Source of the DNA: Pandoraea pnomenusa
GTDB taxonomy: Bacteria > Pseudomonadota > Gammaproteobacteria > Burkholderiales > Burkholderiaceae
DNA: 64,000 nt
Direction of reading: 5' to 3'
Assembly: GCF_000767615.3 (NCBI RefSeq)
Contig: NZ_CP009553.3
Span: 1,054,001-1,118,000 of the forward strand
Under the pieces are notes generated by a model. That model was not told where the DNA came from, did not search any database, and worked only from the letters and a program-made list of their open reading frames with translations. Numbering within the stretch: the stretch's first letter is position 1; the number at the start of each line of letters is the position of its first letter. This document shows, piece by piece, positions 1,656 to 6,444 of the stretch. A program made the position numbers and the translations under genes.

Positions 1656-1993
1656 TCGATCGTGGAAGTGGCCGCGCCCTGGCAGCGGGCGCTAACGCGT
1701 CGAGTGCATCAACCGCCTATCCGCGGGGCTCGCAGTCGTCCGAGGTGGCCACGGGGCGGTCCGGTCGATCATTCGTGCGCCTTGGCTCTTCCCACGAGCA
1801 GGTAAAGGCCATTGAGGCCGGAAGCCGAACGGCTACTTCACAGGCGAGAATCGCCATTCAACCGGCCGTGTGTCAAGTGACTCGGCTGGGTCGGAAATGG
1901 GCTCTCGTGACCGGCCGCAATCGGCCAAACTCGGACATTGGTGGTGGTCATGGGACCGGCCGCACGCCGATCAGAACCAGTCGCTCAACCTGT
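1656..1993. other. Intergenic region with one copy of a dispersed repeat
   Basis: There are 338 bases between two converging genes with no credible coding sequence. The right half contains the 53-bp repeat copy listed separately and GC-rich dyads (CCGGCCG). No clear intrinsic terminator with a T-run is visible. Confidence 0.5.
1889..1941 (+). repeat. 53-bp repeat, copy A, left of the beta-lactamase operon
   Basis: This matches 6392-6444 at 47 of 53 positions in the same orientation, beginning GGTCGG and ending CATTGG, with core GCTCTCGTGACCGGC then GCAATCGGCCAAA. The two copies enclose the four-gene bla operon. I do not recognise a named repeat family. Confidence 0.75.
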
Positions 1994-3187
1994 TCACTCG
2001 ATTCGAGATTGAGGGTGTTCGGCGTCAGGTTGATTCCGCTCGTTGTACTCGCTATTAGGTCGAGATCTTCTCGGAATCAGCCACCGGCGCACAATGCGAC
2101 TCGACGGTTCAGCGTACATTCGCGCGATGGATACGCTCAGGCAGGCAGAAAGCAACAGATAACCGACCAGAACCGCCAGTTTCTCGTCGCCCGTCACGCC
2201 GGAAGGCGGGAAAATCGTCCGCAACAGGCCCAGCACGATAAGGTGAAACAGATAGAGTTCATAGCTAAGCCTTCCGAACCCTTCTAGCACAGTGGACGCA
2301 CGCGTGCTTCGTACTATTGATCCGTCCGGGCGATCATTTGCGGCCAGCAGCAAAACCGCAGTGCCGAAGGCAATTGCCGTGACACCGAACACGTTGCTTT
2401 CGTGGATCGGCCAGGCCAGATAAACGAACGTCATGGCCACCGCCGTCGGCCACGCCAACATGCTCCACGCGCGGCCACGCCACACGGCGCGCCTCGCGAG
2501 CAGCGCCGCGCAACAGCCGGTGGCGATTGCGTCGAAGCAGGCGAAATACGCGTAGAGATAACCACCCTCGTCACCTTGATGCAGGAAACGGTAAGCCGGA
2601 CCGACGACGATGCACGCGAGCCAGAAAGCAACGAGCTGCCCCTCCCTGCGAAACGCGAGACAAAGCAGAGGAAACGAGAGGTAAAACACCTCCTCGACGG
2701 AAAGCGACCACAACACGCCGAGCGCATAGTTGGTCCAACCGTGCGTGCTGATCAACACGTTCATCCAGAACGTCAACGAAGCCAGATTTACTAGCCAAAA
2801 CGAAACTGGTGTCCCGGCCGGCGAGTGGTTCTGGAAGACGGCGATGCCGGCTAGCGCCAGCGCATTGACGACGGCCAATAGCAGCAACAGGCACGGAACG
2901 ATGCGCGCAATGCGTAAGCCGTAAAACGCCCGGACATCGACCTGGCCGAGTTCGGACCAGCGACGAATTGCGTTGCTCGTGATCAGATAGCCCGAAATCA
3001 CGAAAAACATCGTGACCCCGTAGTTGCCGTTTCTCACAACGGCCCGAACCGCCTCCCAGCCGAATACGCGCGACAGAAAAGTGTCGTTCAGCCGATAGGC
3101 GATATTGAAGTGGTGAAACAGCACGAGCAGGATCGAGATGCCACGGAGGAAATCGATCTTCCGGTTTCGCGTGGTGACGTCGGTCAT
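1994..3187 (-). CDS. Acyltransferase 3 family membrane protein (OafA/OatA type)
   Basis: About 397 residues, very hydrophobic, with around ten membrane segments. The acyltransferase-3 hallmark DFLRGISILLVLFHHF near the N-terminus includes the conserved His pair. The family transfers acyl groups, usually acetyl, onto envelope sugars: O-antigen, exopolysaccharide or peptidoglycan. There is no C-terminal SGNH domain, so it is the membrane half only. The start at 3187 is favoured over one six codons upstream, because its ATG overlaps the beta-lactamase stop in an ATGA arrangement, implying translational coupling. Being last in a BlaI / receptor / beta-lactamase operon suggests expression during cell-wall stress. 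The acyl acceptor is unknown. Confidence 0.88.
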   Translation of the reverse strand: MTDVTTRNRKIDFLRGISILLVLFHHFNIAYRLNDTFLSRVFGWEAVRAVVRNGNYGVTMFFVISGYLITSNAIRRWSELGQVDVRAFYGLRIARIVPCLLLLLAVVNALALAGIAVFQNHSPAGTPVSFWLVNLASLTFWMNVLISTHGWTNYALGVLWSLSVEEVFYLSFPLLCLAFRREGQLVAFWLACIVVGPAYRFLHQGDEGGYLYAYFACFDAIATGCCAALLARRAVWRGRAWSMLAWPTAVAMTFVYLAWPIHESNVFGVTAIAFGTAVLLLAANDRPDGSIVRSTRASTVLEGFGRLSYELYLFHLIVLGLLRTIFPPSGVTGDEKLAVLVGYLLLSACLSVSIARMYAEPSSRIVRRWLIPRRSRPNSEYNERNQPDAEHPQSRIE

Positions 3188-4056
3188 GCCGCGCTCGTGG
3201 CCCACTGCACGAACGCCGTGCCCGCTTCGCGCAAAACGGCCTCACGCGCGTCCATGCTGACGCCCGGCGCATCGTAGTAGACAGCAACGAGCAACGGCGC
3301 GCGCCCAGGCGGGCGCACGAGCGCGTAGTCGTTGGTTTCGCTCTCGACGCTGGTACCGGGCCGGTCGGCCGCCTGCCAGCCGGCCGGCAACACGGCGCGA
3401 ATCCGGTTAAGCCCCGGCTTGCAGTCGGTCATTCCGCGTTCCAGTTGTGCGCGAGAGCTGGCGCTCAGAGCATCACCGAGCAGAAGGTGTTGCGCCGTGG
3501 TGATGATGGCCTTCGGCGTCGTGGTGTCGAGCACACCGCGATAACGGTTCGACTCCGGCTCATAGCGGTCCGAGCGCGTGACCGGATCGCCAAGTCCACG
3601 AACGAACCGGGTCAATGCCGCGGGACCACCGGCGCTGCGCATTAGCAAGATCGCGGCCGTGTTGTCGCTCTCCACCAGGGTCGCCTGGCAGAGTGCGTCG
3701 ATCGACAACGCACCACGCGCGACGTTGGCCTTGGTCACGGGTGACGTGAAAATAAGGTCCTTTTCCGTGTAGTGAACGAGTCGATCGAGTCGCTCCGCGC
3801 CGCTATCGACGCGTGACAGTATCTGCGCTGCGAGCAATCCCTTGAACGTGCTGCACATCAAGAAGCGTTCGTCGGCGCGGTGGCTCAATGTGCGGCCCGA
3901 GCCTGTATCGATCGCAAACACGCCGAGGCGGCCGCCATGGCGACGCTCGATATCGGAGAACGGTGAATCGGCTGCACGCAATGCGGGAGCCACGCCCATG
4001 CCGGCGAGCAGCGGCAATCCAATCAACAGCTTTCGACGCGTGATCGAGTGAGTCAA
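3184..4056 (-). CDS. Class A beta-lactamase-like serine hydrolase with altered KTG box
   Basis: A 290-residue member of the class A serine beta-lactamases. A twin-arginine-type signal (TRRKLLIG) precedes a hydrophobic stretch and a probable AxA cleavage site near residue 28. Active-site motifs are present: STFK with the nucleophilic Ser, preceded by Cys as in several carbapenemases; SDN; and the omega-loop EPESN with the general-base Glu. The third box, normally KTG, reads RPG: the KTG Lys is Arg and the Thr is Pro (codons CGG CCC GGT). This should affect carboxylate recognition, so activity is uncertain. No ATG fits; translation probably starts at the TTG at 4056. It is third in the operon, 50 nt after the receptor gene. 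Confidence 0.85.
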   Translation of the reverse strand: MTHSITRRKLLIGLPLLAGMGVAPALRAADSPFSDIERRHGGRLGVFAIDTGSGRTLSHRADERFLMCSTFKGLLAAQILSRVDSGAERLDRLVHYTEKDLIFTSPVTKANVARGALSIDALCQATLVESDNTAAILLMRSAGGPAALTRFVRGLGDPVTRSDRYEPESNRYRGVLDTTTPKAIITTAQHLLLGDALSASSRAQLERGMTDCKPGLNRIRAVLPAGWQAADRPGTSVESETNDYALVRPPGRAPLLVAVYYDAPGVSMDAREAVLREAGTAFVQWATSAA

Positions 4057-4106
4057 GGTTAGGTCCAGTTAGTCAGAGTGAGGAAACGCGGTTAGCGCGA
4101 CGAACG

Positions 4107-5864
4107 TCAAGCCAGCTTGTGGGCGAGCAGGAGGCGACGGATGTTGATCGCGTCGCGCGCAGGGAACGCAGCCGGCCCGGCGTCCAGAAACACCATCGTG
4201 ACGCTGTCCCGAACCGAGCGCAGCCGCATGATCAGGCAACGTCCGGCCGCGTCGGTAAAGCCGGTCTTCGATAACGCGATGTCCCAGCCTTTTTGCCCAA
4301 CGAGTGGATTCGTGTTCTGGTACTCGACGAGCTTGCCGTCGATCGGGACGACGCTGCGGGGGGCAGTCGTGGCACGCACGATGGCCGGATAGCGGGCCGC
4401 CGCGTTCACCATGACCGAGACGTCGCTTGCCGTCGACGTGTTGAGCGGCGAGAGGCCGGTCGGCTCACTGATCGTCGTGTGCTTCAGCCCGAGCGCCGCG
4501 ATCTTGGCGCGCATCGCGGCCTGGAATGCCGGGAAGCCGCCAGGATAGCCATGCGCCAGCGCATACGCGGCGCTGTTGTTCGACGACATCAGCGCGAGTT
4601 GCAACACTGCGTAAAGCGGCAGGCTCGTGCCGACTGGCAATCCTGTGCGGCTGGGACGCACCGCCTCGGCGTTGCCGGCGTCGATACGAATGATCCGATT
4701 CATGTCGGGCCGTGCGTCGAGCACGACCATTGCCGTCATCAATTTAGTCAACGATGCGATCGGCACGATATCGTCGGGTCGCTTTTGGAACAGGACCTGA
4801 CCGGAGTTGTCGTCGATCACCACGACGTGGTTCGATGCGAGCAACCCGACTGGCACGATGCCCGCCTCGTGTTGCGACACGGGCGCGTGCCACAGTGTCT
4901 GCGCCGTCACGCACAACGCGACGAAGCCGGCTGTGATAGCCGCGTACGCGACCCAATGCGGCGAGGACGGGACGGGGTGGCAGAGGCGCTTGATGCGATC
5001 CAGCAAGTGGCCACCCCGCGCCGATTGCGCGACTGGCGAGTATCCGGCACTCGTCGATTGAAGAGCGTCCAGCTGCTCAAGCGCAAGCGCCAAACGTCGC
5101 GGGTTTTGAATAAGCGTGCCAGCGATTTGATCAGCGACGTATTCACGCTCAATACGAATTTGTTGCGACAGCCACCACACTGCTGGATGAAAAAAGAGCA
5201 GCGCCTCGATCACGCTTTGCAGCAGGTTGACCAGATAGTCGGCGCGTTTGATATGCGCGATTTCGTGCGCAAGCAACGCTTCGAGCAGATCGGGTGGCAT
5301 GCGCGCCAGCAACGCAGCCGGAACGAGCACCAGCGGTCGCCACCAGCCGATCGTCAGCGGGCTTGCGAGATGCCTTGCCACGCACAGCGTCACCGGACGC
5401 GACAGCCCGCAACGCGCGGCCAGCGCCGACACGTAGGCCTGCCACCGGGTATCCGGCCAATCGGGAAACGTGTGGCCGATCCGACGAACCCACAGCAAGC
5501 CGGCGGCCAGACGGCACGACATGGCCGCGACACCGATTAGCCATGCCGCAACCAGCCAAGGCAGGACGTTCTCAATCGTAACCACCTCGCGTGTGTGTTC
5601 CGTTGGCACGATCAGAGAATCGGTCGCGCGAAACCAGCCGGATGGCCGCGACGCGGCTTCGATACCCCGGTACACGTCGAGCACTGGTATCGCGAGACAC
5701 AAAAGAAGCGAAAGGCAGAGGAGCGCATAGCGACCTTGCGGGCTGGCGTCACGCATTAGCCGCAACGACAGTGCCGTTACCACGCCGATCAAGGCGCCCT
5801 TCCACGCGAAGTGAATGAGCGCCCATCCCAATACCTGAACAAACGTCCAGGCAAACGGGCTCAT
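4107..5864 (-). CDS. BlaR1-like M56 metallopeptidase fused to a PBP7-type S11 D,D-peptidase sensor
   Basis: A 585-residue membrane receptor. Residues 1-130 hold three membrane segments (about 8-34, 45-64, 99-126). An M56 zinc-protease domain follows, with HEIAH at 200-204 and the third-ligand region EREYVAD near 239-245. A last membrane segment lies at about 303-325. BlaR1/MecR1 proteins then carry a class D-like penicillin-binding sensor. Here residues 345-585 instead match the S11 D-alanyl-D-alanine endopeptidase family (PBP7/PbpG): SLTK at 371-374, SNN at 428-430, TYPGG-like YPGGFPAF at 440-447, and SKTGF at 532-536. It follows blaI with an ATGA overlap. Inferred role: sense beta-lactam or wall status in the periplasm and trigger BlaI cleavage. 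Confidence 0.88.
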   Translation of the reverse strand: MSPFAWTFVQVLGWALIHFAWKGALIGVVTALSLRLMRDASPQGRYALLCLSLLLCLAIPVLDVYRGIEAASRPSGWFRATDSLIVPTEHTREVVTIENVLPWLVAAWLIGVAAMSCRLAAGLLWVRRIGHTFPDWPDTRWQAYVSALAARCGLSRPVTLCVARHLASPLTIGWWRPLVLVPAALLARMPPDLLEALLAHEIAHIKRADYLVNLLQSVIEALLFFHPAVWWLSQQIRIEREYVADQIAGTLIQNPRRLALALEQLDALQSTSAGYSPVAQSARGGHLLDRIKRLCHPVPSSPHWVAYAAITAGFVALCVTAQTLWHAPVSQHEAGIVPVGLLASNHVVVIDDNSGQVLFQKRPDDIVPIASLTKLMTAMVVLDARPDMNRIIRIDAGNAEAVRPSRTGLPVGTSLPLYAVLQLALMSSNNSAAYALAHGYPGGFPAFQAAMRAKIAALGLKHTTISEPTGLSPLNTSTASDVSVMVNAAARYPAIVRATTAPRSVVPIDGKLVEYQNTNPLVGQKGWDIALSKTGFTDAAGRCLIMRLRSVRDSVTMVFLDAGPAAFPARDAINIRRLLLAHKLA

Positions 5865-6244
5865 CGCTCATCTCCATGGAGAAACTTGCGAATTTCCTCC
5901 CGTTCCTCCTGACTAACGTGCTTGCGCAAAGCGGCCATGACGAGTGCCTTGCCCGAACCCGAGAACGCCTTGTGAATCAGTTCCTTCAGCAGGCTGGTTT
6001 GCAGCATGTTCTGGCTTTGCGCGGGCGCGTAGATGTGGGAACGCTCGCTTTCGTCGCGCGTAAGCAGCCCCTTCGCATGCATGACCTGCATCTGGCGCAA
6101 TACGCTGGCATAGGTAACGTCCGCACGTTCCTCATGCATGGCCTGATGGACCTGCTTGACGGTGGCGGGGCCGATTGGCCATAGAACCCGCAGGAGTTCG
6201 AGTTCAGCCGCAGTCGGCCTGTTCGCGGGAGTAGCTTTGGTCAT
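5861..6244 (-). CDS. blaI: BlaI/MecI/CopY family transcriptional repressor
   Basis: A 127-residue winged-helix repressor. The N-terminal DNA-binding domain (residues 8-75, with TAAELELLRVLWPIGPATVK and the recognition region TYASVLRQMQVM) is followed by a helical dimerisation tail. In staphylococci and bacilli such repressors are inactivated by cleavage initiated by the BlaR1/MecR1 receptor. I chose the ATG at 6244, which follows a GAAGGTG ribosome site and matches family length; an upstream in-frame start at 6328 would add 28 residues that do not look like the family. It is the first gene of the operon and its stop overlaps the receptor start as ATGA, so the two are stoichiometrically coupled. 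Confidence 0.88.
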   Translation of the reverse strand: MTKATPANRPTAAELELLRVLWPIGPATVKQVHQAMHEERADVTYASVLRQMQVMHAKGLLTRDESERSHIYAPAQSQNMLQTSLLKELIHKAFSGSGKALVMAALRKHVSQEEREEIRKFLHGDER

Positions 6245-6276
6245 GACGGCACCTTCGTGCAAAGACGGGATGACGT

Positions 6277-6312
6277 AGAGTAGTTTGTCTAGACCTGATT
6301 GTCTATATTGAC
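6277..6312 (-). promoter_or_regulatory. Candidate promoter/operator of the blaI operon
   Basis: On the minus strand, TAGACA (6305-6300) and TACTCT (about 6282-6277) are 17 nt apart. The interval contains the perfect palindrome GTCTAGAC (6287-6294). On the plus strand TTGTCTA occurs twice, at 6285-6291 and 6299-6305, 14 bp apart. BlaI-type repressors bind dyads overlapping their own promoter, so this is the natural candidate, but it does not match the staphylococcal operator. Confidence 0.4.
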
Positions 6313-6391
6313 GTGGTCGTGTCCTCACTGCCGGCGTCTGTTCATGGCTTCCCTTGAGTCATACGAGTCGCGCTCTTAACCGACGCTTCAG

Positions 6392-6444
6392 GGTCGGCAA
6401 CGGGCTCTCGTGACCGGCAGCAATCGGCCAAATTCTGCCATTGG
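6392..6444 (+). repeat. 53-bp repeat, copy B, right of the beta-lactamase operon
   Basis: Direct repeat of 1889-1941 with 47 of 53 identical bases and the same orientation. The pair brackets the bla operon together with its promoter. A weaker relative lies near 7478-7512. Confidence 0.75.

Follow-up and report, generated by a model that had tools for sequence, protein, structure and literature searches.

A BlaR1-type membrane protease carrying an S11/PBP7-type sensor domain in a BlaI/beta-lactamase operon

The window (the whole stretch of 64,000 nucleotides that was analysed) encodes a receptor in which a BlaR1-type M56 zinc protease is fused to a sensor domain of the S11/PBP7 type, and the gene lies in a BlaI/beta-lactamase operon; domain models, structural comparisons and gene neighbourhood support this assignment. 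The reading we prefer, with a probability of roughly 0.77, is that the protein acts as sensor and transducer for an inducible beta-lactamase operon on the BlaR1 plan, equipped with a different antenna. The receptor gene is a single open frame without interruption (ORF check), and its parts are as follows.

4107..5864, minus strand: M56-S11 fusion receptor, BlaR1-type protease plus PBP7-type sensor, 585 amino acids (HMMs, PDB search, AlphaFold/Foldseek)
4890..5864, minus strand: protease half, residues 1-325, with helices at 3-36, 42-72 and 91-132 and a fourth at 304-325
5253..5267, minus strand: HEIAH zinc motif (H200, E201, H204), aligned with HExxH of BlaR1
5142-5144, minus strand: third zinc ligand E241, aligned with the downstream E of BlaR1
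4110..4859, minus strand: S11/PBP7-type sensor domain, residues 336-585
4743..4754, minus strand: SxxK motif S371-L-T-K374 (S and K in 78/78 fused proteins)
4575..4583, minus strand: SxN motif S428-N-N430 (S in 78/78, N in 77/78)
4260..4268, minus strand: KTG motif K533-T-G535 (K in 77/78, T in 78/78, G in 77/78)

Pfam places Peptidase_M56 on residues 27-251 (E 3.5e-28; 99 bits, cut-off 31) and Peptidase_S11 on residues 342-562 (E 4.7e-46; 158 bits, cut-off 27.6). Beta-lactamase2 and Peptidase_M48 score above threshold too, at the much lower values of 27 and 28 bits, and the weaker Beta-lactamase2 and bla_class_A matches are taken as a sign of the shared superfamily. HEIAH is located at residues 200-204, SLTK at 371-374, SNN at 428-430 and SKTGF at 532-536; the surrounding sequences YPGGFPAF and TDAAGRCLIM, which a preliminary description of this DNA had pointed out, are also present.

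The zinc protease domain spans about residues 139-295. With HExxH, the additional Glu and four membrane helices, the receptor has the features of an M56 gluzincin, and H200, E201, H204 and E241 are all present in 78/78 aligned fused proteins, that of the window included. This half was folded separately because S11 chains took up all the fold matches listed for the complete protein, and its structural alignment with solved BlaR1 gave about 14% identity. The full-length AlphaFold model has a pTM of 0.51, so the relative placement of the receptor domains is not fixed by it.

For the C-terminal half, the best NCBIfam model is PBP7/PbpG (NF008668, PRK11669) with 221.4 bits, below the cut-off of 294 for free-standing PBP7, and the best sequence relatives in the PDB are the PBP7-type endopeptidases 6azi and 6muq (39% identity over 245 residues to PBP7/PbpG structures). 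The S11 catalytic motifs and the PBP7 fold occur together in this half. It shares with PbpG the S11 fold, the SxxK/SxN/KTG set and the PBP7-type surroundings; PbpG is a free protein, whereas the receptor domain is fused behind a membrane protease and encoded in a blaI/beta-lactamase operon. A class D-like sensor was considered and rejected, given that no Transpeptidase or class D model matched at E<=1 in Pfam and that BlaR1 models fit the protease half only; NCBIfam blaR1_generic aligns there over profile positions 104-249 of 585 with 59.1 bits, which leaves the receptor short of that family's membership threshold of 400. The near-invariance of the zinc and serine-enzyme residues across the 78 fused proteins suggests that both halves are active.

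The preliminary description had read the N-terminal half as an M56 protease with membrane helices and HEIAH, as Pfam and the BlaR1 structural alignment do, and the C-terminal half as S11/PBP7 rather than class D-like, where Pfam, NCBIfam, PDB and fold matches concur. The pair of Pfam domains that it expected from an HMM search was found, and the listed fold matches of the AlphaFold model that it proposed are PBP7/S11.

The closest functional parallel is BlaR1/MecR1 of S. aureus (M56; PDB 8exp-8ext), which shares with the receptor the four-helix zinc protease with HExxH and downstream E, a C-terminal domain of the penicillin-recognising superfamily, a blaI partner and a beta-lactamase in the cluster. 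It differs in that the sensor of the receptor has the S11/PBP7 fold, not a class D-like one, and in that the blaI, receptor and bla genes of the window lie on one strand. From its domain composition we judge that the receptor would work like BlaR1, yet stands outside the BlaR1 family by the criterion of a class D-like sensor.

A frameshift or assembly error joining a BlaR-like gene to pbpG would produce a similar frame, but this explanation has no observation in its favour and a negligible probability, and is already refuted by the recurrence of the open-frame fusion across genomes. The fusion is found in one frame in 25 ORFs of the compared loci (two of them duplicates), and at least 120 homologous clusters carry both Pfam domains (120/120 among the best 120 of 2634 relatives, the latter obtained at E<=1e-3 from 8000 scored candidates). 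It also occurs in named, independently sequenced genomes. Receptor matches at E<=1e-62 are present in 8/249 Burkholderiaceae genomes, including the window's own and one (G387) with a fragment, and full-length matches in 4/399 genomes of an order-wide sample. The Janthinobacterium fusion was matched in at least 90/195 genomes of the family of G239, with at least 16 matches covering both domains, at a threshold that missed the fused gene of G239 itself. M56-S11 receptors are a recurring, mainly Burkholderiales family, a point that the preliminary description lacks; the search for other such fusions that it proposed also brought out their blaI and beta-lactamase neighbours. The two errors that could have undone the initial reading, a class D/BlaR sensor recognisable by HMM and a gene-joining artefact, were both examined and neither occurred. 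Three long M56 ORFs (L145, L148, L149) were considered as fusions and are unfused by the criterion used. Relatives bear the public names ‘M56 family metallopeptidase’, ‘serine hydrolase’ and ‘PBP7’, and Pfam pre-annotates both domains.

On the minus strand, the order in the window is operator, blaI, receptor, class A beta-lactamase and acyltransferase-3, the last of these genes being absent from the preliminary description.

6276..6305, minus strand: putative operator for BlaI, TAGA-N8-TCTAGA-N8-TCTA, ending some 30 bp ahead of the ATG of blaI
5861..6244, minus strand: blaI, Penicillinase_R repressor (PF03965, E 1.6e-22; 80 bits, cut-off 22.6)
3184..4056, minus strand: class A beta-lactamase (NF033103, 269 bits, cut-off 200; Beta-lactamase2)
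1994..3187, minus strand: acyltransferase-3 family membrane protein (PF01757, E 1.6e-31)

BlaI has 127 amino acids counted from the ATG at 6244, and its ORF reaches back to a GTG at 6328. The 3’ end of blaI overlaps the receptor start by ATGA (5864-5861), and a second ATGA overlap (3187-3184) joins the beta-lactamase to the acyltransferase-3 gene. The intact BlaI/receptor/beta-lactamase operon described earlier thus stands, as does the ATGA coupling of blaI to the receptor; receptor and beta-lactamase are not coupled in this way, being separated by a gap of 50 nt (4057-4106). The beta-lactamase (290 amino acids, TTG start) has blaPAD as its second-best model and a possible twin-arginine leader, TRRKLL, identified by eye. 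It contains STFK and SDN, with RPG in the expected position of KTG. RPG is also found in 11/11 rows of aligned class A enzymes (9 distinct loci), and is therefore a conserved trait of these enzymes rather than a chance mutation.

Allowing gaps of 6-9, the operator pattern has a single site in the 5,389,285-base host genome, the one at 6276-6305, so this operon is probably the sole target of BlaI, barring weaker sites. The pattern is present in 32/32 fused loci that have upstream sequence (23 including the window, plus L181, L182 and L122-L128) and in 8/69 non-fused BlaI upstreams, where BlaI is 61-69% identical to that of the window (the query carrying one extra leading residue). The searched lengths were 170 bases for fused loci and 250 bases before plus 120 after the ORF start for non-fused ones; shuffled upstreams carry the pattern at 4e-5 each, in a single-base shuffle that ignores dinucleotide bias. 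A BlaI gene in the same predicted transcription unit, behind a conserved operator-like motif, gives the receptor a BlaR1-like setting. A scan near the operator found no sigma-70-like promoter at 9/12; by eye, TAGACA-17-TACTCT, which matches sigma-70 at 8/12 and overlaps the operator, may be suggested.

Neighbouring genes were compared across 33 non-duplicate fused loci, i.e., the 25 fused ORFs less the duplicate genomes L130 (equivalent to L007) and L141 (equivalent to L009), plus the window, L181, L182 and L122-L128. The contig-cut L011, where a class A beta-lactamase adjoins, and the fragment L136 were left out of this count. A blaI gene lies directly upstream in 32/32 fused loci with sequence there (the sequence of L004 starts 250 bases before the receptor frame, too close to count), and its last four bases are ATGA or GTGA in 23/24 loci (two of them duplicates) and ATAA in L140. 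The next downstream gene encodes a beta-lactamase in 26 of the 33 loci. Ten of these enzymes belong to class A (those of the window, of Paraburkholderia, of Herbaspirillum and of one further relative), 4 to class D and 12 to subclass B3, the B3 cases all coming from one close Janthinobacterium-like group. Class A calls are based on curated models for the window, L008 and L134 and on 65-95% identity to the window's enzyme for the rest, class D calls on curated models for all four genes, and B3 calls on curated models for five genes and 87-93% identity to that of L137 for the other seven. Since the fused loci are related and the B3 cases form one group, the counts correspond to about three joinings of the receptor with a beta-lactamase class, not 26. 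Elsewhere the next gene encodes a TonB-dependent receptor (6/33; L010, L140, L142, L143, L144 and L182), one of these loci having a class C enzyme as its second gene, or a response-regulator/histidine-kinase protein (1/33).

The acyltransferase again lies 3’ of the beta-lactamase in the class D loci, and a Paraburkholderia caribensis plasmid has the same four genes, whose annotation goes no further than BlaI/MecI/CopY regulator for the first, M56 family metallopeptidase for the receptor, and class A beta-lactamase and acyltransferase for the other two. Acyltransferase-3 is kept with the class A and class D versions; in Herbaspirillum (L008, L009) it lies upstream, in the opposite direction.

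The strict linkage to blaI and the conservation of the operator bear on another reading, in which the S11 domain is a working tethered periplasmic D,D-endopeptidase, the M56 half an unrelated protease that is constitutive or otherwise triggered, and the operon not inducible by beta-lactams. Several relatives are indeed named PBP7 endopeptidase by JGI, and the catalytic residues are intact. The host genome, however, encodes three further S11 proteins above cut-off, leaving no obvious need for a tethered one, and other members of the order have free-standing PBP7-type proteins; together with the blaI and operator conservation, this makes the reading very improbable.

According to the accessible parts of two papers on BlaR1 (PMC7593790, PMC5957439), a beta-lactam acylates the sensor serine; signalling across the membrane is followed by activation of the zinc protease and degradation of BlaI. 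In the corresponding scheme for the window, BlaI would bind the TCTAGA operator and silence its own operon. The S11/PBP7-type domain would lie in the periplasm, where a beta-lactam would acylate Ser371, a step we infer because the SxxK/SxN/KTG set is intact. Once acylated, the sensor would touch the membrane helices differently, whereupon the M56 zinc protease, predicted to face the cytoplasm, would become active and cut BlaI, and loss of BlaI would allow the receptor, the class A beta-lactamase and the acyltransferase to be made. What points most strongly to a beta-lactam as the ligand is that unrelated beta-lactamase classes, which share the beta-lactam as substrate, are found beside the receptor. 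Counting against the scheme are the 7/33 fused loci without an adjoining beta-lactamase, the small number of independent joinings, the negative promoter scan, the low identity (about 14%) of the protease half to solved BlaR1 and the low pTM of the full-length model; in addition, low-mass D,D-peptidases can deacylate fast, so the S11 domain may not keep the acyl group for as long as signalling needs.

The same loci are relevant to the alternative that the sensor mainly reads the cell wall, with the S11 domain binding or cleaving muropeptides or crosslinks, the loss or build-up of that substrate under PBP block activating the protease, and beta-lactams acting indirectly or as one ligand among several. 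The PBP7-type domain keeps its catalytic motifs and is nearer to D,D-endopeptidases than to beta-lactamases, six fused loci continue with a TonB receptor and one with a signalling kinase, and wall fragments may modulate expression via BlaR1/BlaI in Gram-positives (2026 review, PMC13204101, in its accessible part). We nevertheless consider wall reading as the main function unlikely, since a beta-lactamase of one of three unrelated classes as next gene in 26/33 loci is hard to explain unless the signal is mostly a beta-lactam. The preliminary description had suggested that the receptor could sense peptidoglycan peptides directly; the gene neighbourhood speaks for beta-lactams as the chief signal, but the TonB-receptor loci may leave room for another, and they are the best argument that the signal is broader or of another kind. 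On a more speculative note, the S11 antenna might still be a working D,D-endopeptidase, with the receptor gauging whether its site is occupied by crosslinked peptidoglycan or by a beta-lactam; this is rather doubtful, and if true would make the receptor a general wall-status switch that has been plugged into classes A, D and B3 and elsewhere into TonB-dependent uptake.

Beta-lactamase induction in Gram-negatives is usually ascribed to AmpR-type regulators or two-component systems. A one-protein receptor on the Gram-positive plan, with a PBP7 antenna and beside class A, D and B3 enzymes in Burkholderiales, suggests a little-noticed Gram-negative route for switching on resistance. Fused-receptor relatives lie directly upstream of THIN-family subclass B3 genes (Janthinobacterium) and of OXA-1043/OXA-42/OXA-364-like class D genes (Ralstonia/Cupriavidus), which makes the inducibility of THIN-family and comparable enzymes a prediction open to test. 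The receptor is in effect a naturally exchanged sensor on a single protease scaffold, and it could also separate features of BlaR1 signalling that depend on the class D fold, such as the lysine chemistry reportedly proposed for S. aureus BlaR1, from those that need acylation only. In the open-access literature searched, we found neither a regulator of the M56-S11 kind for THIN or other B3 enzymes nor a description of an M56-S11 receptor, subscription journals being mostly outside this coverage; the accessible parts of PMC13204101, PMC5324141, PMC7593790 and PMC5957439 describe no such receptor.

All 33 fused domains fall into one group of the S11 tree, the sole ‘solo’ row among them being the contig-cut L011 (support 99/88 without L181, 88/60 with it). 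Two changes are needed on this tree, where one would mean a single clade; the second is L011, and single-change trees make up 0% of the bootstraps. This grouping is compatible with a single fusion event after which the output gene was exchanged, and one receptor type thus seems to have become linked to beta-lactamases that are unrelated to one another. The M56 tree, built with a quick method, also requires two changes, either a gain and a loss or two gains; the loss reading concerns 28 non-fused rows, mostly Oxalobacteraceae, in which the sensor may have been lost later. Three Oxalobacteraceae-type regions (L195, L196, L197) encode a non-fused M56 and a free S11 protein about 15 kb apart. Such a split arrangement in Massilia-type genomes was considered as a possible ancestor of the fusion. 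The free S11 adjoins the fused domains on the S11 tree with weak support, and the ORFs between the two genes are only partly shared across the three regions.

The four-gene operon of the window is bracketed by the two copies of a direct repeat, which has two matches in the host genome.

1879..1941, plus strand: direct repeat, left copy, 63 nt
6382..6444, plus strand: direct repeat, right copy, 63 nt, 84% identical

Two genomes of the same genus match the left flank at 93-95% identity up to 1927-1936, inside the repeat, and beyond this point the operon is absent from the compared stretch of those genomes. At 1e-62, the receptor has no match in the other sampled genomes of the host genus, and blaI DNA has none in 31 other genomes of that genus. 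The operon was probably acquired. Among the matches listed, the nearest named relatives of the receptor are mostly from Paraburkholderia. A remnant is found in Burkholderiaceae G387 (L136, 3656-5345), comprising an acyltransferase and a short receptor fragment that is 96% identical, with a space between the two that is too small for a beta-lactamase gene.
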